Source of the DNA: a virus
DNA: 27,888 nucleotides
Reading direction: 5' to 3' (one strand)
Virus record (IMG/VR): IMGVR_UViG_3300037189_001779
Coordinates: 1-27,888 of that record
The notes under the pieces were generated by a model that saw only the letters and a list, made by a program, of their open reading frames with translations, did no database searches and was not told the DNA's origin. Numbering within the stretch: the stretch's first letter is position 1; each line of letters opens with the position of its first letter. The position numbers were made by a program, and so were the translations under genes. This document shows positions 11,285 to 26,589 of the stretch, piece by piece.

Positions 11285-11611
11285 GTGATAACAGTTACAG
11301 AAAAAGCAGCTATCAAAATCAAAAAACATTTAGAAAAAAGAGGTAAGGGTATTGGTATCCTTGTAGGTGTTAATACTACTGGATGCAGTGGATTAGCATA
11401 TAAACTAGAATATGTTGATGACTTACCAAATAAGGGTGAGTACATGACATTCAATAGCAATGATATTATCATAGTAGTCAGTCAAAAAGACCTCCCCTAC
11501 ATTGATGGTATGAAAATGGAATGGAAGCGTGAAGGATTAAATGAGGGATTTGACTTTATTAATCCAAATGAAACAGCACGTTGCGGTTGCGGAGAAAGTT
11601 TCACCGTTTAA
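11285..11611 (+). CDS. A-type iron-sulfur cluster carrier, IscA/HesB-like
   Basis: This 108-residue protein has the full A-type carrier layout and length (about 107-120 aa). The first conserved cysteine is in TTGCSGLAYKLEY (C34) and the C-terminal pair is in ARCGCGESFTV (C100 and C102). These three cysteines bind the cluster in IscA, SufA and ErpA, which pass Fe-S clusters to apoproteins. Which of the three it most resembles cannot be decided here. The GTG start at 11285 follows the previous stop by 2 nt and lacks a clear ribosome-binding site, implying coupling. It closes a late operon of virion-type genes, which is an odd place for a metabolic gene. Confidence 0.9.
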   Translation: MITVTEKAAIKIKKHLEKRGKGIGILVGVNTTGCSGLAYKLEYVDDLPNKGEYMTFNSNDIIIVVSQKDLPYIDGMKMEWKREGLNEGFDFINPNETARCGCGESFTV

Positions 11612-11612
11612 C

Positions 11613-11641
11613 TTGTAGCATGTTTGACAACATGTTATAAT
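11613..11641 (+). promoter_or_regulatory. promoter with CATGTT/AACATG inverted repeat in the spacer, predicted leaderless
   Basis: TTGTAG (11613-11618), 17 bp, and TATAAT (11636-11641) form a promoter ending exactly 6 nt before the ATG at 11648. The spacer contains CATGTT-TGAC-AACATG (11619-11634), an inverted repeat with 6-bp arms that could bind a repressor. The words TTTGACA and ATGTTATAAT also occur in the primase promoter. Confidence 0.55.
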
Positions 11642-11647
11642 AATTGC

Positions 11648-12334
11648 ATGTATAATCCCACTAAATTCAATTATCAACGATTCGATAGAGTAACAATCAA
11701 TGGTTCACGTAAATATGCTACACCAGATGGTGAAAAGCTACCAAGTGTAACAACAATCCTAGAAGCAACTAAAAGTGAAGAAAGTAAACAAGCACTTAAT
11801 GAGTGGCGCAAACGTGTAGGTGTTAAGAAAGCACAAGAGATTACCACAGAAGCAGCAGGACGTGGTACACGTATGCACAAATGGATAGAAGATTACATTA
11901 AGACTGGTGTGATCGGTGATCCAGGAAGTAATCCGTATAGCATACAAAGCCATAAAATGGCTCAGGAGATTATAGGCAAAGGTCTAGTTAACTGCAATGA
12001 AGCTTGGGGTGTAGAGGTTCCATTATATCTCCCTAAAATCTATGCAGGCACCACTGATTTATGTGGTGTACATGATGGACAAGAAGCTATTATGGATCAC
12101 AAGCAAAGCAACAAAGTCAAAAAGCGTGAGTGGATTGAGGATTATTTCGTACAATCTGCTGCATATGCTGAAGCACACAATGAAGTATATGGAACTAAGA
12201 TACGTAAGGGTGTTATTTTCATGTGTACTGCAGATGTTCAGTACCTAGAATTCATAGTCGAAGGCACTGAGTTTGACAAATACAGAGATATTTGGTTCCG
12301 TAAAGTGGAGGAATATTACACCAAGTTTCTATAG
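11648..12334 (+). CDS. RecB/Cas4-like PD-(D/E)XK exonuclease
   Basis: The 228-residue protein carries the RecB-family nuclease motifs in order. GTRMHKWIE (73-81) provides the N-terminal histidine, AGTTDLCG (133-140) the metal-binding aspartate D137, IMDHKQ (148-153) the D-x-K pair D150/K152, and QSAAYAEA (169-176) the Q-x3-Y motif. It probably degrades or trims DNA ends, in recombination, host DNA breakdown or packaging repair. Phage relatives of this fold act alone, without a helicase partner. The ATG at 11648 is chosen over a TTG at 11624 because the promoter -10 box ends 6 nt before it. It stands as a single-gene unit between the late IscA operon and the giant fibre gene. Confidence 0.82.
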   Translation: MYNPTKFNYQRFDRVTINGSRKYATPDGEKLPSVTTILEATKSEESKQALNEWRKRVGVKKAQEITTEAAGRGTRMHKWIEDYIKTGVIGDPGSNPYSIQSHKMAQEIIGKGLVNCNEAWGVEVPLYLPKIYAGTTDLCGVHDGQEAIMDHKQSNKVKKREWIEDYFVQSAAYAEAHNEVYGTKIRKGVIFMCTADVQYLEFIVEGTEFDKYRDIWFRKVEEYYTKFL

Positions 12335-12336
12335 TT

Positions 12337-12369
12337 TCTAATCCAAATTAGATTGATAAATAGTATAAT
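12337..12369 (+). promoter_or_regulatory. small hairpin followed by late promoter of the giant fibre gene
   Basis: TCTAAT-CCAA-ATTAGA (12337-12352) is a perfect 6-bp hairpin just after the nuclease stop. TAAATAGTAT (12357-12366) follows and is a late element like those upstream of the other virion genes. A TATAAT (12364-12369) overlaps its 3' side. The fibre ATG at 12393 is 30 nt beyond the TAAATA core. Confidence 0.55.
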
Positions 12370-12392
12370 CATCTTTTCATAAGAATTATACT

Positions 12393-15300
12393 ATGGCAAT
12401 AATACAACTTTCCAAAATTCAACACCGTACAGGGGCTAACGTAGATTTGCCCCAACTAGCTGAGGGCGAATTAGGTTTCGCCACAGACGAGCGTAGACTT
12501 TACATAGGTAATGACGCAAATCTGTTTCCCCCTTTAGGGACTAGTACTACTACTCAGACTGAGATACTCACAGAGGTTTCTACTCTGAATTGGTCAAGAC
12601 TGGGTGGTTCTGCAAATACAACATTAAACATAGAGGCCCCTGTAGAAGATGGGCAGTTAATTGTTGCTAATTCAAATACATGGACTAATGCAGGTGGTAC
12701 TTCAGCTTTGCCTATCAATTTAGGTAATATTCAAAATCTTAATATCGGTGGTGGTTTAAATGGATATGTACTTACAACTGACGGCTCAGGTAATCTAAGC
12801 TGGCAGGGTAGCGGTGTTGTGACATATGCTGTTGCTAATGTTTCACAAGCTAATCCTGCAGTCGTAACAACTACTGAAGATAATGCAATCTTAACTGGAT
12901 TGCAAGTTACAATCTTTGGTGTTGGTGGTATGACCCAGCTAAAGACAGCCGGTGCAAGTGGCACAAACAAATTCTATGTAGTAAAACAATCTAACAGTAC
13001 ATTCACCCTGTACTCGGACAGTACATTATTATCAGCAGTTAACAGTTCGGCATTTACTGCAGCAGTTCCTAATACAGGTAATGCAGTCACATCATTCTAT
13101 GAAAACGGCACAGGTAATCCAGGTGGTGGAAATAGAAATATTCAATTCAATGATGGTTCTGGATTATTTGGTGGTATTGGTACTTTTACATTTGATAAAA
13201 CTACTTCTAATTTAAGTTTAACCGGTAATGCAAACATAACATATGATATTGCTGCAAATAATTTCATAGGTAAGTTTACAGGACCAATAGGAAACACAAC
13301 AGCCAATACAGGTAACTTTACGACTATCAATGCTGCTTCTACTATTAGCACTTCAGGAAATGTTTCTGCAGGTGGTAATGTAGTAGTCACTGGAAATATA
13401 AGCACAGGTAGTAATTTAACAACAGCAGGCAATTTAAGTGTAACAGGTAATACTAAGTTAACAGGTAAATTGTCAATGGGTGGTAATATAGTAGGCAATT
13501 TAGTACCAGATGCTGACATCACTTATAATTTAGGTAGTCCAACAAGACGTTGGAAAGATTTATACATATCAAGTAACTCACTCGTTATTGGTAATGGTAC
13601 ATTATCTACTAGTCCTACTGGTGACTTTAATTTTTCAAACTCAAACATAACAACATTAAATGCTAATTTAGGTAATCTAGCAACTGCTAATTTCTTAGGC
13701 GGCACACTAATTGCATCATCAAGTTCACAACCTAACATATCAACTGTTGGTAATCTAACAAGTTTGAATGTTGCTGGTATAAGTAATTTAGGTCCAGTAA
13801 ACAATGTGTTTATTGGCAACTCTACTGCAAATTATGTATTAACTGCTACTGATGCAAATGGAACCATGCGTTGGTTACCAACCCAGTATATTGAAACTCC
13901 TGCTAAAGGCTCAAATCAAAGCGTACAGTTTAATGTAGGTAATGTAATTTCTGGCAGTGCTAATTTCTTATTTGATAAAGATTTTAATAAATTAACAGTT
14001 CCTAACCTTGTTGTCGGAACAACAATTAACGGCAATGCCACTATTAGTGTTACTGGTAATATAACTGGTAATGCCATTAACGCAACTACACTTAATGTTA
14101 GTGGTGCTGTAATCGCATCAAACACAGTTAGTGCTGCAGGCAATCTTACATCAAACGGTATACTTACTGTTAATAACAATGCAGCTATCACTGGTAATTT
14201 AAGTTTAACTGGAACCATTACTGCTAATCTTACAAATGCAGGCAATGTAAGTGTATCAGGTAATACAACTACTTCACGTTTATCTGTAGTATCTAATGTA
14301 GTTGCTAACGGTAATATTACTGGTGGTAATATATTAACATTGGGTAGTATATCTGCTGGTGGTAATGTAGATGCAAATAATCTAAATGCAGCAGGCAATG
14401 TCATCATTACTGGACAAGCAAACGCAGTGCGTTTTGTAGCTAGTGCAGAAATTAAAGCTGGTCAATATATTCAAGCTGCTGGTAAAGCATATATCGGTGA
14501 AGATGTATTAGCAAATGGTAATGTTTCTGGTGCTAATATTTTAACTTTAGGTAATGTTTCAGCAGGTGGAAACTTAACTATAGCAGCAAATGCACAAATC
14601 AACGGTAATGCTACTATTACTGGCACTATTGCTGGTGGTAATATTACTACTCTTGGCTTAATCAGTGCAAGAGGTAATATCAATGGTGCTAATATTACTG
14701 CTAATGGATTTATCACCACAACAGGTGATGTAACAGCAAATGGTGCAATATCAGCAAATGGTAATATTACTAGTTTAGGAACAATAACAGCTAACGCATT
14801 GAACGTTGGTAATGTATCAACAACTGGTAATTTAACAGTCAACAATCTTGCTGTAGCAAACTTTGTAAGTTCATCATTACTACCAAATGCAGATATTTCT
14901 CTTGCATTGGGTGGCCCAACTAAACGTTGGTCAACATTATATGTTGGCAACACAATCAATATTGGTGATAAGACTATTGTTTCAGATGCAAATGGTATTG
15001 GATTTGGTGCTGCATTATTCAATCAAGCTAATGCAAATATTGCTAACTTAAGAACAGCATATGCAAATCTACCAGATACCGGTAATATCAAGATACCAGG
15101 TGGTACTTTAGGTGCAATTCTTAAAACAGACGGTAATGGTAATATAAGTTGGGGAGCACCTAGTAGCTTTGTATCTGGTGCAGCCGGGTCAAACACACAA
15201 GTTCAGTTTAACGATGCTAATATAATGGCTGGTAGTGCGAACTTTGTATTCAACAAAACAAGTAACACATTAACAGTAGATAAGATCATTGCAAATGGTA

Positions 15301-18300
15301 GTGGTCTAACAGGAATGAATGGTGCAAATGTAACAGGCACAGTAAGTTCTGCTAGTGTAGCAGGAACAGTATCAGTAAATGCACAACCAAATATTAATAG
15401 TGTTGGTAATCTAACAGGTCTAGTGGTAGGTAATTTAGGTAATGTTGATTTCAGTAATACAACTGCAGTAACTTTAAACAGTAATAGTCTACGAGTTCCA
15501 AATGGTTGGACTCCTGGAATGTCAATCATTGCTGTTAGTCCAACCGCTAATAGTAATGCAGACGCAGGAAAATTAAGTTGGGGTTATTCATCTCTATTAC
15601 AAAATGGCAATAGTAATGTAGTTGTTGATACTGCTGCAAATATTCGTTTTACTGCCAACGGTGTAGTTAACGTAGTTACTATCGCAAACACTGGATTATT
15701 CACTTCAAATCTAACAGTTAATGCAATTGCTAATTTAGGCTCAGTTAGTAATGTAAAAATTACTGGTGGTGGACCAAATCAAATATTAAGAACAGATGGT
15801 AACGGTGTGTTAAGTTGGGTAGCTCCTGCAAGTACTAGTGCATTAGCAAATGCAAATAGTAACATAACAGTTGAAGCCGCAAATATAAATCTATCAGCAA
15901 ATGGCACACCTAACGTATTACAAGTAACTGCAACCGGTGTTAATATATCTAATGAAACAATATCTGGTACTTCTAATATCGGTACATTAAATATAAATGC
16001 TATTGCTAATCTTGGTGCAGTTGCTAATATAAGAATTGGAGGTAGTAATGTAGGATGGTTACTGCAATCAAATGGTGCTGGTGGAGTTGTTTGGACACCG
16101 CCAGCAAGTACAAGTGGCTTAACAAATGGTAACAGTAGCGTTTCTGTTGATCAAAACGGTAATATAAGAATAACTGCAAACACTGCACCTAATGTAGTTG
16201 TCATTGCAAATACAGGGCTTTTCACAAGTAATATTTCAGCGACAGGTACATTAACAACAAATGGTATCGCTGTACTAAACAACGGTAACATAACACTACC
16301 GGGTACTGCTAGTACTGCAGGTAAAATATATTGGCCAGGCACTGCTGCTTGCTCAGCACCACAACTTACTACATATTCAGGTGGTACACGATTAGTATTA
16401 CAAGACTCTATTGCTACTAGTGGTTCTGCAGGATACACAATGGGTATTGAATCTGGTAATATGTGGTTTGGTACTGATGTAGTTGCAGCAGGATTTAAAT
16501 GGTATGGTGGCATAACTCAAATTGCGACATTAAGTAACGCAACTGGATTTAGTACAGTTGGCAATGTTGCCGGTATTAACATTAATACAACAGGTAATGT
16601 AAGCGCAACAGGTAATGCTAATATTGGTAATAATGTAAACACTGTTAATGTTAATGCAACCGGTAGTATAATAGCAGCTAATATCACTGCTAATACAGTC
16701 ATAAGCACAACTGGTAATATTAACTCAGGCAATGAGAATGTAACCGGTAATGTACAAGCAGGTAACTTAAGAACAACAGGTAATGTAAGCGCAACAGGTA
16801 ACATCACAACTGCAAACTTCTTTGTAGGTAATGGTTATTACTTGACAGGTGTATTAAGAGAACCAACAGCATTAATTGCTAATGGTACTTTAAGTAATGT
16901 CAGCATTCCAGCTGCTAATGGCTCCATCTCAGTAGTAGCAAATAACGTAAGTGTTATGACTATTACTAGTGTTGGTGCAAATATCAGTGGTAATGCAAGT
17001 ATTTCAGGTAATGCTAACGTAGGTAACTTAGGAACTGCGGGTAATGTTACAGCAAATTACTTTATTGGTAATGGTGCATTATTAACAGGCATTGCAACAA
17101 GCAATCAATTGTTTAATGGAAATAGTAACGTAACTATTGATTCAAATGCTAACGTAAGAATTACTGCAAATGGATCAGCAAACATCGTAAGTTACATTGG
17201 TAATGGTGTATATCCTGCAAATGCTAACATAGGAGCAATTCAGCCGCAAAATACTTATTATCGTGTTGGTAATGTATATGTATCATCTGGTGGCGATTAC
17301 GGACATTTCTCTACTCATGCATGGTACACTGGCGGTATGTGGATGGGTGATGGTGCAGTTGGCGGATTATTCCAAATAGCAGGACCTACATTTAATTGGT
17401 TCAAAGGTTCTGCATGTACAAGTGTCACATACACTAGTTTGATGTCACTTGATGCTAATGGAAATTTATTCGCAAATGGTACTATATCATCAGTAAGCAA
17501 TATAACCGGTGTTAATATAATTGGTACTAATATAAGTGCCACAGCTAATGTAACTGGTGGTAATATCATAACTGCTGGTGCAGTAAGTGCTACTGGTGTA
17601 ATAAGTACTGCTGGTAATATTGTAAGTAACAGCTATCACTTCTTAAATTCATATGCTGGCGCCACTGAAGGTGGTCAGATTGTTATGTCGTTTGCTGGTG
17701 GTAACGCTTATGCTAATGCAGTAGCTTCAACATGGAACATAGATGTTGGTCCTGCAAATGACTTCCGTATATTCAATTATAACTCGGGTGGTGCGGTATC
17801 AATTCCATTCATAATTCGTCAATCAAATAATCAAGCAGATTTCACTGGAAATATTGCTACTGGTGCTAATGTTAATGCAGGCAATGTTAATACTACCGCT
17901 GCAGTATCAGCAGGTGGTAATATTACTACAACACAGTTCTTAAATGCTGGTAGTATGAGTGTTTCTGGCACTATTAATGGTGGCGCAAATGCTAACATAG
18001 CAGGTAATTTAAATCTAACAGGTAATGCAAATGTAATAGGTAAGATAAATGTATCCAATAGCATTAGTATGGCTAATGGCTCTCTGAACATAATTAATTG
18101 GGGTACTGCTGGTTATGCACCGCCTAGTATTGTAGCAGCTTATGGAAATGGCACAAAAATTGTATTGTTTGACAGTAAAACATCAACTGCTACTGCTCTT
18201 GGCTACACAATGGGTATTGATACAAGTACATTCTACTTTACCAGTGATGTAAACTTTAAATGGTATACTAATGGCTCACTAACACCAGTAGCAACAATGA

Positions 18301-21300
18301 CTCCTACAGGATTCAGTGTCACTGGCACAGTTAATGCATCCAACTTTGTTGGTAACGGATCTGGTCTTACTGGTATTTCAGCATCAAATGCACTTAGTTT
18401 GGTAAACGGTTCAAGTAATGTTGTAGTTGACGTAAATGGTGCAATAAGAATTGGTGCAATAGGTGTGCCTAATGTGTTGACCATCACAAACACAGGCACA
18501 GTAGTGACAGGTACAGAAAGCGTAACTGGTGCTATTACTGCTAATGGTGCAATTACAACGGCAACAACTTTAACTGCAGCTAATTTGAGTATTACTGGAA
18601 ATGTAGCATTTACTGCTGCAAACGTAAGTTTAGGATCTAATACTGCTGTTAGAATTACTGGTGGGGGTCCTAATCAATTCTTAAAAACAGATGGAAACGG
18701 TAATTTAAGTTGGGTTTCTGCAGGTGGTACTGCAAACGTTGCAGGTGCACCAACTCAAGTACAGTTTAACACTGGCGGTGCAATGGATGCTAGTGCTAAC
18801 TTTACATTTGATAAAACAACTAATACATTAGTAGTCACTAATGCTACAAATTCAGGTAACTTAAGCGTAGGCGGTAATGCAACTGTAGCAGCTAACTTAA
18901 GTGTTACTACAGGCAATATCAGTGCTAGTGGTAACGTTAGCTTAATTGGCAATAACGTAACTGGTAAACTAGTGTTTAACAATAATGGTGTTGCAGCTCC
19001 GATATTAAATGGTGTAAGTAATGGTACTAGAACAATTTTCTATAATTCAGCAGGAGCTCAAGCTACTAACTTTGCAATGGGTATAGATAGTAGCACATTA
19101 TGGTACAGTGTTCCGGATACAGCTAGTTTCCACAGATGGTACGGTGGAACAACTCAGCTTGCATATCTAACTGGAATTGGATTCTCTGTAACAGGTAACA
19201 TATTTGCTAGTGCTAATATTAGTACTATTGGCAATATTCTTGCTGCAGGTTTACTCAGTGTTACTGGAACAATTTCAAGTACTGGTGCTATTGCTACCCC
19301 AAGTACAATCAGTGCTACAGGTAATATTAATACTACAGCTACACTAAATGCAGCAGCATTGTCTGTAACTGGAGCAGCAATTTACGGTGGTGTAATTAAC
19401 ACAACAAGCACAATGAGTGCTACTGGTACAGTAACGGCAGGTGGATTTATCACTGCAGGTACAATTAGTGCTAATGGTACTATTACATCAAATACTGCAA
19501 TTAACACTACAGGTACTATAAGTGCTACTGGTAACATTACTACTGCTGGTTACATACAAGCTGCAGGTCTTGCTTCTAGCGGTAACATGGCAATCCCAGC
19601 AGGTAATTCATTATTGATGGGAACAAATGCTGGCACATCAGCTAAGATAATATGGGATGCAGCTGGGACAGGAGCACCAACATATAGTGCATTTAGTCCA
19701 GGTACAAAATTAGTATTGTATCCTGCAACTGCTGCGCCATACACACCAAGTGCAAGTGAGGTTGGATATGCAATGGGTATTGAAGCCTACTCAATATGGT
19801 ATAGTACAAGCAATTCTACAGTTGGTTTCCATAGATGGTATGCAGGTAATACACAAATTGCAAACTTAAACTATCAATCATTTACTGTAGCAGGAAATTT
19901 AAGTGCAGTTGGTAATGTTTATTCAAATAACGAAAACGTAACAAGTAATGTACAAGCAGGTAACTTAAGAACAACAGGTGTAGTATCTGCAGCAAGTACA
20001 ATAACCGGTGGCAATTTAGTAACAGGAGGCACAATAAGTTCATATGGTATTGCAACATTAGGTAATGTTGTTGTACCAACAGGCGGTACTATATCTGCAA
20101 TCGGCAATATCATTGGTGGTAATATAGTAGCAAATGCAACTGTCACTGGTGTAACATTAAGTGCTAGTGGTAACGTAACAGGCTTTAACTTAACAACTGG
20201 CGGTGTAGTGAGTGCTGCTAGTAACGTAACCGGTGGTAATATCTTAACTGGTGGTTTAATAAGTGCTGCAGGTAGTGTTACAGGTATAAGTCTTGTTGGT
20301 AATCTATACACAGTTCGTAACGGTGGTATTTACTGGCCTAGTGATACTAGTGGTGACGTTGCAACTATCACTTATCTAAGATCAGGCGCTGATACTGGTA
20401 CCCTAGAACTTTCTGTACAAAATGATACAGACGATATTATTAGATTAAATGCAAGTGGTGGTACATCAGTTGTTGGTAATTTAACAGTTGGTGCTAACAT
20501 AACAACAACTGCAAATGCTAACGTAGGTAATTTAAATGCAACAAGTAATGTACAAGCAGGTAACTTAAGAACAACTGGATTAATCAGTGCTACTGGTAAT
20601 GTAACAGCTAGTAATTTTATCACAACTGGCACGATAACTTTAGGTGGTGTCATCAGTGCTACTGGTACCCCAGCTGCTATCGCTGCTACTGGTACAATTA
20701 ACACTTTAAGTACAATTAGTGCTACTGGCACAATTACTGGTGGTAATATTGTAACCGCAGGCGCAGTCAGTGCAACAGGTATAATCAGTACTACAGCTAA
20801 TATTACTACTGCAGCTAATATTAGTGCTACTGCAGGAATATTTGCTAGTACAATTAGTGCTGTTGGTAATATCAACAGTACAGGTAACATTATAACTAAT
20901 GGTACAATATGTACTATAGGATTGATAGTAAGTGCAGGTGCAAGTGCTAACTTTGCCTCTCCGATATATGCAACATCATTAATTAGTACTACTGCAACAG
21001 TTACTAGTGCTGTTTTAAGTGCTACAGGAAATGTAAATGCTGCTAATGTAATATCTACTGGTAATGTAAATGCTGGTACTAACATAAGTGCTACTGGTAA
21101 TATTACTTCTGCAGCAAACATAAGTACTAGTGGTAATATTATTGCTGCTGGCACAATGAGTTCTACTGGATTAGCGACACATGGTAGTTTAAGTGTCGTT
21201 GGTAGTTCTACTCATACTGGTGCAATCAATACAACTAATGCTATTAGTGCTGTTGGTACGGTTACTGCAGGTGGATTCAGTACTACAGGAAATACTATTA

Positions 21301-21839
21301 CTGGTAATTTAAGCGTTACTGGTAACGTAATTGGTACATTAACTGTTCCTGGTACTGCAAATATTGGTACTGCAAATGTAACTACTTTAAATGTATCTGG
21401 TGCTGCTAATGTAAGTCCAAGTTCAGTTGTAAGAGATCCTGCTAATGCAGCAATAAATATTCCAGTTGGATATCGTATAAATCCACTAATTCCCGTAACA
21501 ATGGCATCTGGAACTATTGCCAGTGTTTTATACGATAATAACGCTACACAAAAAATATTTTATGTCACTGGTGCAACCGTAGCTACTGGTGTAATTAATT
21601 GGGAAGGCAGCGGATCTTTCGAACGTTTTGCTCTTGGTTCAGTTATAACTATTATCAATGATAGTTCAGGAACAGTACAAGCTTCTGGCTCCTATGCTGG
21701 ATGTAATTTTAGACGAGCGCAAACCGGAGCTACAACAAATACTATTAATGTTGGACCTAATGGTTATGCAGTATTTACTAAGATTGTATCTGTTGGACCA
21801 GGCGGATATCCATTATGGTTCGTGTCAGGTAATTTCTAA
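12393..21839 (+). CDS. giant modular tail-fibre-like protein, 3148 aa
   Basis: The gene takes up a third of the window without a frameshift. Residues 1-42 (MAIIQLSKIQHRTGANVDLP at the start, then GELGFATDERRLYIGND) are the fibre N-terminal module related to the major-tropism-determinant family, which anchors fibres to the virion. The body is rich in N, G, T, S and A, with hundreds of short strands such as VSATGNI, as in beta-helical or beta-solenoid fibres. Larger modules recur: QVQFN...FDK (near residues 247, 506, 931 and 2118), LGxPTxRW (376, 836), TDGNGxxSW (128, 911, 1133, 2099), NGNSNV...ITAN (1070, 1244, 1574), NGxxLTG (968, 1479, 1560, 1986) and a GYxMGI...WY module of about 80 aa. The last 140 residues (from about 3010) are non-repetitive and may be the receptor-binding tip. 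I see no enzymatic or chaperone domain. Confidence 0.85.
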   Translation: MAIIQLSKIQHRTGANVDLPQLAEGELGFATDERRLYIGNDANLFPPLGTSTTTQTEILTEVSTLNWSRLGGSANTTLNIEAPVEDGQLIVANSNTWTNAGGTSALPINLGNIQNLNIGGGLNGYVLTTDGSGNLSWQGSGVVTYAVANVSQANPAVVTTTEDNAILTGLQVTIFGVGGMTQLKTAGASGTNKFYVVKQSNSTFTLYSDSTLLSAVNSSAFTAAVPNTGNAVTSFYENGTGNPGGGNRNIQFNDGSGLFGGIGTFTFDKTTSNLSLTGNANITYDIAANNFIGKFTGPIGNTTANTGNFTTINAASTISTSGNVSAGGNVVVTGNISTGSNLTTAGNLSVTGNTKLTGKLSMGGNIVGNLVPDADITYNLGSPTRRWKDLYISSNSLVIGNGTLSTSPTGDFNFSNSNITTLNANLGNLATANFLGGTLIASSSSQPNISTVGNLTSLNVAGISNLGPVNNVFIGNSTANYVLTATDANGTMRWLPTQYIETPAKGSNQSVQFNVGNVISGSANFLFDKDFNKLTVPNLVVGTTINGNATISVTGNITGNAINATTLNVSGAVIASNTVSAAGNLTSNGILTVNNNAAITGNLSLTGTITANLTNAGNVSVSGNTTTSRLSVVSNVVANGNITGGNILTLGSISAGGNVDANNLNAAGNVIITGQANAVRFVASAEIKAGQYIQAAGKAYIGEDVLANGNVSGANILTLGNVSAGGNLTIAANAQINGNATITGTIAGGNITTLGLISARGNINGANITANGFITTTGDVTANGAISANGNITSLGTITANALNVGNVSTTGNLTVNNLAVANFVSSSLLPNADISLALGGPTKRWSTLYVGNTINIGDKTIVSDANGIGFGAALFNQANANIANLRTAYANLPDTGNIKIPGGTLGAILKTDGNGNISWGAPSSFVSGAAGSNTQVQFNDANIMAGSANFVFNKTSNTLTVDKIIANGSGLTGMNGANVTGTVSSASVAGTVSVNAQPNINSVGNLTGLVVGNLGNVDFSNTTAVTLNSNSLRVPNGWTPGMSIIAVSPTANSNADAGKLSWGYSSLLQNGNSNVVVDTAANIRFTANGVVNVVTIANTGLFTSNLTVNAIANLGSVSNVKITGGGPNQILRTDGNGVLSWVAPASTSALANANSNITVEAANINLSANGTPNVLQVTATGVNISNETISGTSNIGTLNINAIANLGAVANIRIGGSNVGWLLQSNGAGGVVWTPPASTSGLTNGNSSVSVDQNGNIRITANTAPNVVVIANTGLFTSNISATGTLTTNGIAVLNNGNITLPGTASTAGKIYWPGTAACSAPQLTTYSGGTRLVLQDSIATSGSAGYTMGIESGNMWFGTDVVAAGFKWYGGITQIATLSNATGFSTVGNVAGININTTGNVSATGNANIGNNVNTVNVNATGSIIAANITANTVISTTGNINSGNENVTGNVQAGNLRTTGNVSATGNITTANFFVGNGYYLTGVLREPTALIANGTLSNVSIPAANGSISVVANNVSVMTITSVGANISGNASISGNANVGNLGTAGNVTANYFIGNGALLTGIATSNQLFNGNSNVTIDSNANVRITANGSANIVSYIGNGVYPANANIGAIQPQNTYYRVGNVYVSSGGDYGHFSTHAWYTGGMWMGDGAVGGLFQIAGPTFNWFKGSACTSVTYTSLMSLDANGNLFANGTISSVSNITGVNIIGTNISATANVTGGNIITAGAVSATGVISTAGNIVSNSYHFLNSYAGATEGGQIVMSFAGGNAYANAVASTWNIDVGPANDFRIFNYNSGGAVSIPFIIRQSNNQADFTGNIATGANVNAGNVNTTAAVSAGGNITTTQFLNAGSMSVSGTINGGANANIAGNLNLTGNANVIGKINVSNSISMANGSLNIINWGTAGYAPPSIVAAYGNGTKIVLFDSKTSTATALGYTMGIDTSTFYFTSDVNFKWYTNGSLTPVATMTPTGFSVTGTVNASNFVGNGSGLTGISASNALSLVNGSSNVVVDVNGAIRIGAIGVPNVLTITNTGTVVTGTESVTGAITANGAITTATTLTAANLSITGNVAFTAANVSLGSNTAVRITGGGPNQFLKTDGNGNLSWVSAGGTANVAGAPTQVQFNTGGAMDASANFTFDKTTNTLVVTNATNSGNLSVGGNATVAANLSVTTGNISASGNVSLIGNNVTGKLVFNNNGVAAPILNGVSNGTRTIFYNSAGAQATNFAMGIDSSTLWYSVPDTASFHRWYGGTTQLAYLTGIGFSVTGNIFASANISTIGNILAAGLLSVTGTISSTGAIATPSTISATGNINTTATLNAAALSVTGAAIYGGVINTTSTMSATGTVTAGGFITAGTISANGTITSNTAINTTGTISATGNITTAGYIQAAGLASSGNMAIPAGNSLLMGTNAGTSAKIIWDAAGTGAPTYSAFSPGTKLVLYPATAAPYTPSASEVGYAMGIEAYSIWYSTSNSTVGFHRWYAGNTQIANLNYQSFTVAGNLSAVGNVYSNNENVTSNVQAGNLRTTGVVSAASTITGGNLVTGGTISSYGIATLGNVVVPTGGTISAIGNIIGGNIVANATVTGVTLSASGNVTGFNLTTGGVVSAASNVTGGNILTGGLISAAGSVTGISLVGNLYTVRNGGIYWPSDTSGDVATITYLRSGADTGTLELSVQNDTDDIIRLNASGGTSVVGNLTVGANITTTANANVGNLNATSNVQAGNLRTTGLISATGNVTASNFITTGTITLGGVISATGTPAAIAATGTINTLSTISATGTITGGNIVTAGAVSATGIISTTANITTAANISATAGIFASTISAVGNINSTGNIITNGTICTIGLIVSAGASANFASPIYATSLISTTATVTSAVLSATGNVNAANVISTGNVNAGTNISATGNITSAANISTSGNIIAAGTMSSTGLATHGSLSVVGSSTHTGAINTTNAISAVGTVTAGGFSTTGNTITGNLSVTGNVIGTLTVPGTANIGTANVTTLNVSGAANVSPSSVVRDPANAAINIPVGYRINPLIPVTMASGTIASVLYDNNATQKIFYVTGATVATGVINWEGSGSFERFALGSVITIINDSSGTVQASGSYAGCNFRRAQTGATTNTINVGPNGYAVFTKIVSVGPGGYPLWFVSGNF
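16319..19903 (+). repeat. dispersed GYxMGI/WY fibre modules (four clear copies, one divergent)
   Basis: Copies lie at about 16319-16570, 18080-18330, 18963-19203 and 19639-19900, with a divergent relative at 17256-17480. Each encodes about 80 residues with the order G-T-K/R-x-V-L, then G-Y-x-M-G-I-(D/E), then a W-Y/F-F pair, then F-(K/H)-(R)-W-Y, ending in a G-F-S-V-x-G-N/T-type strand. Examples are GYTMGIESGNMWFG and FHRWYGGTTQ. They break up the otherwise monotonous solenoid and may form protruding globular knobs. Boundaries are approximate. Confidence 0.7.
16747..16780 (+). repeat. 34-bp near-identical direct repeat, copy 1
   Basis: Encodes NVQAGNLRTTG within the fibre gene. The DNA is identical to the copy at 19945-19978 and differs at one base near its 3' end from the copy at 20545-20578. 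All three copies are in the same reading frame. Confidence 0.85.
19945..19978 (+). repeat. 34-bp near-identical direct repeat, copy 2
   Basis: Identical to copy 1 over 34 bp. The codons just before it also match in sense (NENVT in both), so the duplicated unit is longer at protein level than at DNA level. Confidence 0.85.
20545..20578 (+). repeat. 34-bp near-identical direct repeat, copy 3
   Basis: Matches copies 1 and 2 except ACAACTGG in place of ACAACAGG. It is followed by a stretch of short SATGTI-type strands with the most uniform DNA of the gene. Confidence 0.82.
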
Positions 21840-21843
21840 AATA

Positions 21844-21869
21844 AAATGGGCTATTAATTTAGCCCATTT
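21844..21869 (+). terminator. hairpin after the fibre gene, likely terminator
   Basis: AAATGGGCTA (21844-21853), a 6-nt loop and TAGCCCATTT (21860-21869) form a perfect 10-bp stem, 4 nt after the fibre stop codon. The T-run is only the three Ts of the stem's 3' arm, so termination may be partial, or the hairpin may protect the mRNA 3' end. Confidence 0.68.
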
Positions 21870-21963: not shown

Positions 21964-23100
21964 ATGGGACGTCCTTTAAAAATTATCAAAGAAAACGCAT
22001 CAGCAAGCCCAAGTGGAAAAATTGATGCAGGTTATCCAAATAACGGAACAACCAATAATGGATTCAGTAGAAGCTATCCAGGTATTCTCGGCGGATCAAT
22101 TCCAACATTTAACGATTCAGATCAAGTTGAAGCTAGTGTAGCTATTGAGAAAAAACAATATGGTACAATAGTTGCATCAACTGCACATACTTGTGTAAGC
22201 GGTTTCGGCACTGCATTTAGCAGTGTACTGTCAGTAGGTAGTTCAGTTTATGCTGACGGTATTTCCGCTGCAATTGGAACAGTTAATACATTAAATGCAA
22301 ATGCATCAGACACAGCAACAGCAACAACTGCATCAAATGATCGTATCACTGTAACAGCTAGTGCGCAGTTCGTAGTAGGCGGTTCGGTAACTGTTGCCGC
22401 AAATATTGGTAATCTAGTTGCAGGAACAGTGTATTATGTATATGATTTACCAACTTCAACAACATTACGTGTTAGTTCTACACCTGATCTAGCATCTATA
22501 TTCCAGTTAGCTGATACTACATTACAATCAGTAGCAATAACTCAAACACAAACATTGACTTTAGACGCAGTTTCAACTGCATCAGTTACACGTAGTGTTT
22601 GGACCAGCTCTACTCCTGAAAGTAATAATGGTTATATTGTTCGTCAAAAGGGTAAGAGAAAATTCTTAGTTGTTGCTAAAACAGCAATTCAGGATGAGTT
22701 CATTGCTCAAGGCGGAAGCTACATGATCGTTTCAGTTAGTAATACCAACTGGGAAGCATTAGGAGCAGGAGCAGATGCAACAGCAGGTAAAATATTCACT
22801 GCAATTAAAGATGGAACCGGTCTAACAACTAATGGAACTGTTTACGCAGTTGGTGTGTGTTTATTATCAAACGTTGCTGATGGAAGTTTAACTAGAAATC
22901 AAATGAACTTAAATCTAAACAAGGCAAGTGGTCCAGATGTATTTGCATCTTCAGTATCAGATCATTTTGCAGTTGATTTCACTGATAACGGAACTGATGA
23001 AAATGCAGGAACTAAGTTTATTGCAACACTAAATGGTGCAAGCAATACTCCAGATCCAGCAACAGGTCTCATCTCTGTCGCAGTAGATAACTATTGCTAA
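21964..23100 (+). CDS. virion structural protein, 378 aa (MGRPLKI family)
   Basis: The protein starts MGRPLKIIKENASASPSG, a beginning I associate with a family of structural proteins in marine T4-like phages. This is followed by a glycine/asparagine-rich segment (GYPNNGTTNNGFSRSYPG). The middle (about 60-210) is alanine/threonine/valine-rich beta structure with FGTAFSSVLSVGSSVYADG-type strands. A small basic domain follows (YIVRQKGKRKFLV), and the end is again beta-rich. There is no signal peptide. A late promoter, a structured leader, a good ribosome-binding site and a strong terminator suggest high expression. It may be a neck, whisker or capsid-fibre component; position next to the fibre and neck genes fits all of these. 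Confidence 0.65.
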   Translation: MGRPLKIIKENASASPSGKIDAGYPNNGTTNNGFSRSYPGILGGSIPTFNDSDQVEASVAIEKKQYGTIVASTAHTCVSGFGTAFSSVLSVGSSVYADGISAAIGTVNTLNANASDTATATTASNDRITVTASAQFVVGGSVTVAANIGNLVAGTVYYVYDLPTSTTLRVSSTPDLASIFQLADTTLQSVAITQTQTLTLDAVSTASVTRSVWTSSTPESNNGYIVRQKGKRKFLVVAKTAIQDEFIAQGGSYMIVSVSNTNWEALGAGADATAGKIFTAIKDGTGLTTNGTVYAVGVCLLSNVADGSLTRNQMNLNLNKASGPDVFASSVSDHFAVDFTDNGTDENAGTKFIATLNGASNTPDPATGLISVAVDNYC

Positions 23101-23569: not shown

Positions 23570-24943
23570 TTAAATCACTACGCTAAAATCTCCCGCTTCA
23601 TACCAACCTTCCCATGATTTCATCCATGTACCAGTATAACGATACTGAACACCAGTAGTTAAATTAGTTACGTATTGAGTGCTAGTTAAGTTAGTACTAT
23701 CAAAGCTAACAAACCATGCACCTGACATAGAATCATATTCAATAATATCATTTGCTTTTGCTTTTAATGTTCCCCATGCACTAGTAGGATCATATGAGTA
23801 TGTACTATCAATACTTTCAACTATTAAGTATCGTTGACCATTTGCTGGCAATGGTAAATTGTTACCTGGACTCTTAGCAAGTGGATTAACTACACTATCA
23901 ACTGCTGGTAACGTGTTTTGTGGTAATGTATCCGGGTCAATGTTAAAGATTAATAATCTATCGTCATTGGGATTGAATGCAATCGTACCTACAATCTCTG
24001 TTTCCATATATGGATTTTGTAACCATATTTGACTGATGCCAGGTCTTACTTTTCCATACACGTTTAAAAATGCAGACCAATGCACATTAGTGTCAGGATT
24101 GGTTGGTAATTCTAAACTTTCATTGTTAGGAGTAAACGCAGTTCCGTCTGGTAACACTTGTAATGAGTTACCTAATAATAATAACTTATATCCATAAGGA
24201 GTAATCTTTTGTCTTGTTCCTAATAGCATGTCATCATCTTGCATATCTGTAAGAGCGTTCCCCTGAAATATACTTGCGATAATCTTGTAAATAACACCAA
24301 GCTTTTTGACTTTAGCACTGCTACTAATCCATATAGGCATGTAGAATGTCCATGTCATAACATCAATAGGGTTTCCTGATCCGATTGGTATTGTACGTGA
24401 ACTAAATGTAAGTTTATCTTGATACACAACACTTAATGAAGTCCAGTCAATGAAGTTATCAGTACTTTGAATTTCCATTGCAGGATTGAATAACACACCT
24501 AATTGTTCTAATAACTCTAATTTCTGATTATAGTTTGTTGTCCAAAAATCAACTGTGATACGCAATGTATACGGAACAGGCATGATACGTTCAACTGTGA
24601 ATGCATCGCCTTGTGTGGTTTCAAATTGTTGAGTGTCTACATTAAATGTTCTACGTCTTACTGCTAGATTATCTACAAAATATGGTTCTTGTGTTCTGCT
24701 TTGATCATATTCTAAACCTGAGATATAATACGTAATCATAGGTGCGCTAGGTAAACTACTAGGACTGTTATTGCCTATGACTGTAGATACCATTCTGCTT
24801 TGATCACCATACTGAATAGGTACACGCACTAATATATCATTGCCCGCTGGATCTTTGCCTTTGGTTACATACCAATTGCTGAAAATTCTAGCGAACTGAA
24901 CCAAAAATCTACGTATTTGGTTATCATAAAAAAACTTTGCCAT
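23570..24943 (-). CDS. 15: tail completion / sheath stabiliser protein, gp15-like
   Basis: The N-terminus (MAKFFYDNQIRRFLVQFARI, then FSNWYV) and the following VRVPIQYGDQSRM match the T4 gp15 pattern: FYNSSFRRY, LFSNIQI, IRVPITYASKEH. Later, MPVPYTLRITVDFWTTNYNQ and LEQLGVLFNPAMEIQ correspond to the IYELSIFTRYEDD and VEQILPYFQPHF segments of gp15. Gp15 caps the tail tube and sheath and joins the tail to the head. At 457 aa it is much longer than T4 gp15 (272 aa); the extra C-terminal part (about 250-457) includes a separate beta-rich domain ending in SWEGWYEAGDFSVVI. AAGGA 5 nt before the ATG serves as ribosome-binding site. The gene order after the gp14-like gene agrees with T4. Confidence 0.78.
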   Translation of the reverse strand: MAKFFYDNQIRRFLVQFARIFSNWYVTKGKDPAGNDILVRVPIQYGDQSRMVSTVIGNNSPSSLPSAPMITYYISGLEYDQSRTQEPYFVDNLAVRRRTFNVDTQQFETTQGDAFTVERIMPVPYTLRITVDFWTTNYNQKLELLEQLGVLFNPAMEIQSTDNFIDWTSLSVVYQDKLTFSSRTIPIGSGNPIDVMTWTFYMPIWISSSAKVKKLGVIYKIIASIFQGNALTDMQDDDMLLGTRQKITPYGYKLLLLGNSLQVLPDGTAFTPNNESLELPTNPDTNVHWSAFLNVYGKVRPGISQIWLQNPYMETEIVGTIAFNPNDDRLLIFNIDPDTLPQNTLPAVDSVVNPLAKSPGNNLPLPANGQRYLIVESIDSTYSYDPTSAWGTLKAKANDIIEYDSMSGAWFVSFDSTNLTSTQYVTNLTTGVQYRYTGTWMKSWEGWYEAGDFSVVI

Positions 24944-24951
24944 TTTATTCC

Positions 24952-26589
24952 TTAATCAGGTGTAATTCTTAAAATACTTGATAGTGGTTGTTGTTGCGGT
25001 ATATCACCATTATTTGTTTGTGTAATATTGTTATTATTAATAAAGCCTGACAATTGAGATTGATTAGAACTATCAAAGCCGAAGCCTGTTCTTACGTTCT
25101 CACTTATCTTGACCCATAAGCTACCGTCCCATCTAAACAGTTGTTGCGGTAAATAATCAATGCGCAATACATATTGACCTAATGTTGGATTAGGCGGGAA
25201 TGTAATTGCTGATGTAACTGGCTCACCATTAGGTGCTTGACCAGTACCTACTAAGTATCCATCTAAATAACCGAAACTTTGTGGACTACTTCTTACAATA
25301 AATCTAAATCTAGGATCACAGTCTGCTCTGTAATCCATATCAGGATTAATCAATGTCTTATCAAAGTCAGGTGTACTAGGATCAGCATCACTGAATGCGT
25401 ATGTATTATCTGAGGTACCGAATGGAACTGTAACAGGACCAAATGCTTTTACTGCAAGAACTAATGTTGGTTCAATTGATCCTGAACCTGTGTCTGTTCT
25501 TTCTAACTCCAACTCAGCAACTTCCATGTTCAATTGAATGAAAGCTTTGATATCTTCTAAATTCAAATCTCTACTTTCTAACTCTGCTAGTGCTGCTGCA
25601 GTGATACGTAATATAGGACTAGGATTAAAGCCTGCTGGTTGTATAACTTCTAATGTACCAGTTACTGGGGCTCCGTTATAAACAACTACACTTACAGGGA
25701 GTGCAGGTTTGTCACCTTCAGTAGGTAATACATATAATTGACTTCTATCGTAACCTGTTAGAGGTACAAGGCGTGCAGCTTCAGCTATTGCAGCATCATT
25801 GATTTGTATATTCTTATTGTATCTACTGATAATGTCTTTTAAGCTATCTCCCACTTCTAATGTCCAATACTCAGGGTCAGTACAAGGGATGCCTGCCGGT
25901 ACATCTTTGATAGGTGTATAAATCTTATCACCGTATGTCACTGTATATCCAGGAACATATGATTTTGTTTTGTCCCAATCACCTAAGTAGTTATCCTTAT
26001 TGATTGGTTGCTCTAATATATTACTGAATTCTTGACTATCAACTAATGGCTCACACTTGATTCTCCATAGATGCGGATACCATGTTTGACTGAACCCTTC
26101 ACTAGCATAGTTTGAATCAGTTATTTGATAATATCTACGTAATGAAGTTGGTAATTTGTCGTTTAGTGGATGATAGTCGGTCAAGTGGGGCAACTCTAAT
26201 ACGTCCCCAACCATTAACTTACGACCAATCAAGTCTATCATGTTGTTATAATGAACAGTAATGAATATAATATCGTTGTTTAGGAACAATCCAAATTGAC
26301 TTAAATCAAAATCTAAATTCTGTACGTTATAATGACCGCGGATTCTGTAGATATCAGGAGCGTATTTTCTGTCACGATTTTCTAAGAATAGTAAATCTTG
26401 TATATTTAATGGGCTAAGTTCAGTATATTGTGGTTGTGTCAAATCAGTGCTAGGACCTTGATCCTGAGGCCCCAAATACTTGTGAATATACATGTCGGTT
26501 CCACCCACAGTAAACATCTCATAGATTGTTCTATCCATGAATCTATAATCGTTCGTTTTTTCGGGGCGGTATAGTGAAAGTCTTGGCAT
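24952..26589 (-). CDS. 14: neck protein, gp14-like, with carbohydrate-binding-like insert
   Basis: Residues 1-200 follow the T4 gp14 pattern: a YEMFTVGGTDMYIHKYLGP segment near ECYYVPRE, then DLLFLENRDRKY, an FGLFLNNDIIFITV strand matching FGMQVQDEVTLSI, VGDVLELP matching EGDLIYFP, and LWRIKCEP. Gp14 is a neck ring protein at the head-tail junction. The protein is 545 aa, about twice T4 gp14. Residues about 204-243 (W205, Y211, G214, YTVTYGDKIYTP, W242) look like a small chitin-binding CBM5/12-type module, and the rest of the C-terminal half is unfamiliar. It is the first gene of a minus-strand late operon and ends 8 nt before the gp15 start. Confidence 0.68.
   Translation of the reverse strand: MPRLSLYRPEKTNDYRFMDRTIYEMFTVGGTDMYIHKYLGPQDQGPSTDLTQPQYTELSPLNIQDLLFLENRDRKYAPDIYRIRGHYNVQNLDFDLSQFGLFLNNDIIFITVHYNNMIDLIGRKLMVGDVLELPHLTDYHPLNDKLPTSLRRYYQITDSNYASEGFSQTWYPHLWRIKCEPLVDSQEFSNILEQPINKDNYLGDWDKTKSYVPGYTVTYGDKIYTPIKDVPAGIPCTDPEYWTLEVGDSLKDIISRYNKNIQINDAAIAEAARLVPLTGYDRSQLYVLPTEGDKPALPVSVVVYNGAPVTGTLEVIQPAGFNPSPILRITAAALAELESRDLNLEDIKAFIQLNMEVAELELERTDTGSGSIEPTLVLAVKAFGPVTVPFGTSDNTYAFSDADPSTPDFDKTLINPDMDYRADCDPRFRFIVRSSPQSFGYLDGYLVGTGQAPNGEPVTSAITFPPNPTLGQYVLRIDYLPQQLFRWDGSLWVKISENVRTGFGFDSSNQSQLSGFINNNNITQTNNGDIPQQQPLSSILRITPD

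Follow-up and report, generated by a model that had tools for sequence, protein, structure and literature searches.

A single open frame of 3148 aa, running from ATG to TAA on the plus strand (12393..21839), encodes a giant modular fibre, which belongs to a known sort of phage fibre but is unusually large and varies in length among relatives. The window, by which we mean the whole stretch of DNA analysed, is one complete linear IMG/VR record of 27,888 bp. We favor the reading, at a probability of roughly 0.78, that the gene encodes an adhesin fibre, expressed late and attached to the virion, of a jumbo T4-like myovirus that infects freshwater bacteria, where the freshwater origin is presumed from the sample types of relatives. 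The frame, the anchor, the modules, the syntenic locus, the selection acting on siblings and the leader box with its hairpin can all be read from the DNA. From these we infer a location on the virion, a trimeric state and a role in adsorption.

In this model, an Mtd_N anchor of ~140 aa would attach the fibre to the particle, beta-strand hexads interspersed with globular modules would form a shaft that bridges the distance, and a C-terminal beta-sandwich tip would present or dock a receptor-binding surface, perhaps together with a partner protein. Three chains probably wind together, and a chain of 3148 aa might reach roughly 85-250 nm in length, depending on how it packs. The anchor stays constant while lineages alter the length and modules of the shaft. 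Fibre length and module order help determine the cells within a phage’s reach.

Locus, relatives and placement on the particle

The fibre gene does take up a third of the window, as had been claimed, but the window is itself most likely only a 27,888-bp linear piece of a jumbo phage genome. Pfam and PHROGs identified its neighbors as a DnaB-like helicase, a primase, exonucleases, a gp15-type tail sheath stabiliser (23570..24943, minus strand; PF16724, 67.4 bits; phrog_11196) and a neck-region virion structural protein (24952..26589, minus strand; phrog_11591). The sheath stabiliser, together with the helicase and primase, is what we expect of a T4-like (jumbo) myovirus. The neck protein, 42% identical to that of Atu_ph07 over 57% of its length, finds its best matches in the jumbo phages Atu_ph07 (490 kb), Phosso, SCTP-2, PA5oct and GAP32, and for this reason the window was most likely cut from the genome of a jumbo T4-like myovirus. 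The fibre gene would then be a small share of that genome, going by its inferred size.

Using the 136-aa anchor as a query, we gathered relatives from 39 loci in IMG/VR. Wherever flanks were present, gene order was constant: exonuclease, fibre, partner, nudix, gp15, neck and g26710. Complete versions at this locus include proteins of 193, 286, 326, 371, 746, 1041, 1046, 2613, 4486, 4921 and 4925 aa. Because relatives carry the same gene in the same place at about 190 to 4,925 aa, we describe this as a length-variable fibre family. The original prediction had passed over this conserved locus with its broad span of lengths, as well as the partner gene and the late-promoter-like box with its covarying hairpin. 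The partner gene of the window (21964..23100, plus strand; 378 aa, MGRPLKI type) lies directly 3' of the fibre, and in every relative examined this slot is filled by a gene of 136-405 aa of the MGRPLKI or KKYFGNRN type. Partner proteins share 49-61% identity in four genomes, and neither tblastn against phage records nor a sequence search of the PDB returned a match. Right after the fibre stop codon, at 21844-21869, we also observed a perfect 10-bp inverted repeat, AAATGGGCTA / TAGCCCATTT, with no T-run behind it.

The exonuclease gene upstream of the fibre (11624..12334, plus strand; phrog_298) served as the basis for a tree. In it, the long-fibre genomes form one clade (support 100/99), and the window branches outside its eight other members; four of these nine genomes are cut off, such that their full fibre length is unseen. 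Going by this tree, long shafts are confined to a single clade. The iron-sulphur cluster assembly gene (Fe-S_biosyn) found directly 5' of the exonuclease in the window, at 11285-11608, went undetected in many short-fibre relatives.

Three long siblings (G002, G004 and G005) are alignable over 4441-4875 residues, with G002 sharing 67% and 71% identity with G004 and G005. The strong selection that the original prediction had proposed was borne out as purifying selection in these siblings: dN/dS is 0.175-0.188 over 4441-4875 codons and stays under 0.3 in each block of 500 codons, values that come from the siblings and were obtained with synonymous sites near saturation. The window fibre is ~40% identical to the long siblings, and best at its N-terminus.

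Two placements on the particle were considered for such an adhesin. Attachment to the baseplate as a long tail fibre is a real possibility: Mtd is one of the tail fibre proteins, the fold of the tip is similar to tail spikes and T4 gp9, and the giant fibre of S-CREM2, found in virions, carries a long tail fibre annotation (PMC10665884). This placement is harder to reconcile with the 193-330 aa versions at the same locus, which would give very short tail fibres, and with a relative of 223 kb, G008, which has separate fibre-like genes nearer its baseplate genes.

A whisker on the neck or head, where the fibre would take a position like that of fibritin, project from the neck instead of the baseplate and serve as a ‘hairy’ whisker or collar fibre, is nearly as likely. 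This placement is favored by the gene remaining next to gp15 and the neck gene across relatives, and by G008, in which both the baseplate genes (148-158 kb) and another large fibre cluster (177-223 kb) lie far from the locus. The giant of S-SCSM2R, which has an Mtd_N-like start, is encoded directly before neck, neck and gp15 genes, the position that wac occupies in T4. Long thin capsid-associated whiskers are known from the distant relative Atu_ph07 (PMC6102473). Against a whisker stand the absence of a fibritin domain in Pfam, the convergent orientation of the fibre gene to gp15, which puts it outside one shared operon, and the tail fibre annotation of the S-CREM2 giant; moreover, gene neighborhood cannot fix a location on the particle.

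Two further features of G008 were observed along the way. The region at 177-223 kb (L131-L134), beyond the baseplate genes, is a dense array of G/N/S/T-rich fibre-like ORFs, several of them >1000 aa, and a 5246-aa virion structural gene (132253-147993, L129-L130; phrog_10938) whose composition is not fibre-like adjoins the baseplate genes.

Architecture of the chain

The conserved anchor spans residues 1-139 (12393..12809, plus strand). As predicted, it is of the Mtd type: Mtd_N (PF18454) matches residues 9-40 at 31.8 bits, over the curated cut-off of 26.3. The anchor is common to giant, medium and short versions of the fibre, and its first 136 aa had no tblastn match in the phage records searched. 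The whole fibre likewise had no megablast match in phage records, no PHROGs match and no PDB match by sequence.

Next to the anchor, residues 140-235 (12810..13097, plus strand) were modeled by AF2 with a pLDDT mostly of 77-90. Over 79 residues they superpose on the E1-FCCH fold (Z 12.8, rmsd 1.6), and they also match phage phi92 endosialidase (Z 6.8). The E1-FCCH-like fold occurs in phage spikes and tail proteins. Pfam E1_FCCH scored 15.7 bits on this segment, below its cut-off. Among aligned versions of the fibre, only the long ones have this module.

The shaft (13098..21404, plus strand) is rich in G, N, T, A and S, which over the whole fibre make up 13.5% (G), 13.1% (N), 13.5% (T), 11.7% (A) and 9.7% (S). 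Both the short strand repeats and the several larger module types of the original prediction are present. A hexad strand motif, strictly defined, was counted 148 times, twice its number in shuffles (70.5 +/- 6.6), with spacings dominated by 6, 11, 12 and 17, and the hexads are broken by recurring QFN (n=4), LGSPT (n=2), TDGNG and aromatic knob modules. Three of the four knobs resemble the 3403-aa protein of S-SCSM2R: knob 1 (residues 1300-1385; 16290..16547) is 39% identical over 84 aa, knob 3 (residues 2188-2263; 18954..19181) is 35% identical over 124 aa (E 1e-13) and knob 4 (residues 2399-2496; 19587..19880) is 40% identical over 90 aa. Knob 2 (residues 1896-1973; 18078..18311) completes the set; all four are on the plus strand. 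Self-BLASTP of the fibre gave no off-diagonal pairs below 1e-5, probably a limit of the run settings, since the modules do recur. AF2 placed strands every 6 residues in parts of the shaft (pLDDT about 60-81), within fibre models whose overall confidence was low (mean pLDDT 51.8 and 58.6). Two likenesses were set aside: that of the shaft model to acetyltransferase-type solenoids, which we distrust for an rmsd of 11-12 despite a high Z, and a FapA beta-solenoid match in one sibling, below its cut-off.

The C-terminal tip (residues 3005-3148; 21405..21836, plus strand) was modeled as a beta-sandwich and matches domains of phage spikes, T4 gp9 and CBA120 TSP4 (Z ~8-10, rmsd 2.3-2.9 over 87-97 residues). 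This tip of about 140 residues had been considered unique. That view does not hold, as the tip matches, weakly at 17.9 bits, a profile built from the tips of siblings and of unrelated aquatic phage fibres. With the sibling tip alignment as a query we found 49 loci, and the sibling domain ends many other aquatic phage fibres. These fibres (L079-L119 in IMG/VR) share the tip domain with the window fibre and many have Mtd_N-like starts; unlike the window fibre, they are 170-1197 aa where complete and are encoded at other loci. The window tip alone had no confirmed match among viral contigs, single-sequence hhalign against the sibling tips was weak (2.4% probability), and two PDB sequence hits of the tip were chance hits. 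From the profile match, we regard the tip as a diverged member of a domain common to other aquatic phage fibres.

A related fold in T4 gp9 and CBA120 TSP4, along with a partner gene that always comes next after the fibre, could also mean that the C-terminal domain docks another fibre or the partner protein and does not itself bind the receptor. We think this rather unlikely, as unrelated phages have similar C-terminal domains at the ends of fibres of 170-1200 aa that stand alone.

The uninterrupted frame of 9.4 kb is real. Over the same stretch, 285 and 379 stops interrupt the other two forward frames, and the chance of an equally long open frame at the same base composition is ~10^-102. Its repeats lie at the protein level, with tandem DNA arrays of <=53 bp and a longest exact direct DNA repeat of 36 nt in the ORF, so repeat collapse is unlikely. 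Creation of the frame by collapsed or joined repeats in assembly, the danger that the original prediction had named, is thus highly improbable and we reject it for the family: even with the window’s own sequence present in one record only, and no second copy found, two records contain exactly the same 4921-aa sibling, a third agrees with it perfectly over 3469 aa, and siblings of 4486 and 4925 aa are colinear with a dN/dS of 0.18.

A late-promoter-like box and a leader hairpin

Upstream of the fibre gene is a late-promoter-like box, GATAAATA (12355..12362, plus strand), which was present before the fibre in 38/38 leaders examined. We compared it with the T4 late consensus, TATAAATA, which itself showed no enrichment in the window. 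In G008, the box lies 13-41 nt before many virion-type genes (baseplate, tail and fibre), and for this reason GATAAATA, with its presumed promoter activity, is probably the late promoter of this lineage, its form of T4 TATAAATA.

Directly 5' of the ATG, the leader can fold into a hairpin with an 8-bp stem (12362..12392, plus strand; arms 12362-12369 and 12385-12392). Across 13 distinct leaders, 93.3% of cells are paired, compared with 30-53% in slid controls, and double-sided changes occur at 3 pairs (6 cells). Covariation is 0.218 against 0.080 in shuffled alignments, with 0/500 shuffles as high. The complete box-plus-stem sequence was found in G008 solely before the fibre gene. The hairpin is absent from L029 (10001-11550), a sibling at the fibre locus whose visible end carries a collagen-like GxSG repeat. 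The putative role of the hairpin would be to control translation start or to protect the 5'-end of the long message. The covarying hairpin has no earlier description in the literature searched and may regulate very long late messages. A bolder and distinctly doubtful extension is that this is a dedicated, length-variable whisker locus, in which the neck anchor and partner are fixed, lineages stretch or shrink the shaft over a range of about 25-fold, and a leader hairpin private to this late mRNA controls the translation or stability of long messages.

Comparison with known fibres

Mtd of Bordetella phage BPP-1 has an N-terminal domain family, PF18454, in common with the window fibre, which differs in its giant beta shaft and its tip. 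Neither a reverse transcriptase nor a C-lectin domain, as would mark the target of a diversity-generating retroelement, was found within the window, itself only part of a genome. Like T4 fibritin (wac), whose locus varies far more than structural loci usually do (PMC3797505), the window fibre is encoded next to neck genes: where the flank is present, the fibre gene lies beside gp15 and the neck protein. Unlike fibritin, the window fibre is beta-rich rather than a coiled coil and its gene is convergent with these neighbors, and a full Pfam scan found no fibritin domain in it or in three siblings.

Taking a giant modular fibre to be a single frame of at least 3000 aa with a repetitive shaft and modules, the window fibre, at 3148 aa, and siblings of up to 4925 aa belong to this class. 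Among known giants, gp85 of Synechococcus phage S-CREM2 (OR473000) is likewise a single frame with a long repetitive shaft in a T4-like aquatic phage. It comprises 4971 aa and was detected by mass spectrometry of virions with 286 unique peptides (PMC10665884). The two share no blastp similarity and differ in hexad density (1.8 per 100 aa in gp85 vs 4.7), and gp85 has no Mtd_N-like start that we could see and lies away from neck genes. The S-SCSM2R ‘large exoprotein’ (PQ898602, 3403 aa) is closer to the window fibre, with its Mtd_N-like start, its knob modules 35-40% identical to those of the window fibre, and a gene that directly adjoins neck and gp15 genes. It differs in having the neck genes on the same strand and far fewer GN hexads. 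Both giants have C-termini that read as S74-type chaperones; Pfam found no S74 domain in the window fibre or three siblings, a C-terminal S74 being a feature of S-CREM2 and S-SCSM2R and not of every fibre.

T4-like cyanophages have thus yielded giant single-chain fibres of 3,400-5,000 aa before, including one detected in virions, and the window fibre accordingly belongs to an already known sort. The novelty lies in a length series within a single syntenic locus, in long forms being limited to one clade, in an ever-present partner gene and in a covarying leader hairpin. A constant anchor at one locus provides a natural length series, from <200 to 4,925 residues in related phages, and shaft growth, length selection and the folding of chains of 3,000-5,000 residues can therefore be tested by comparison.
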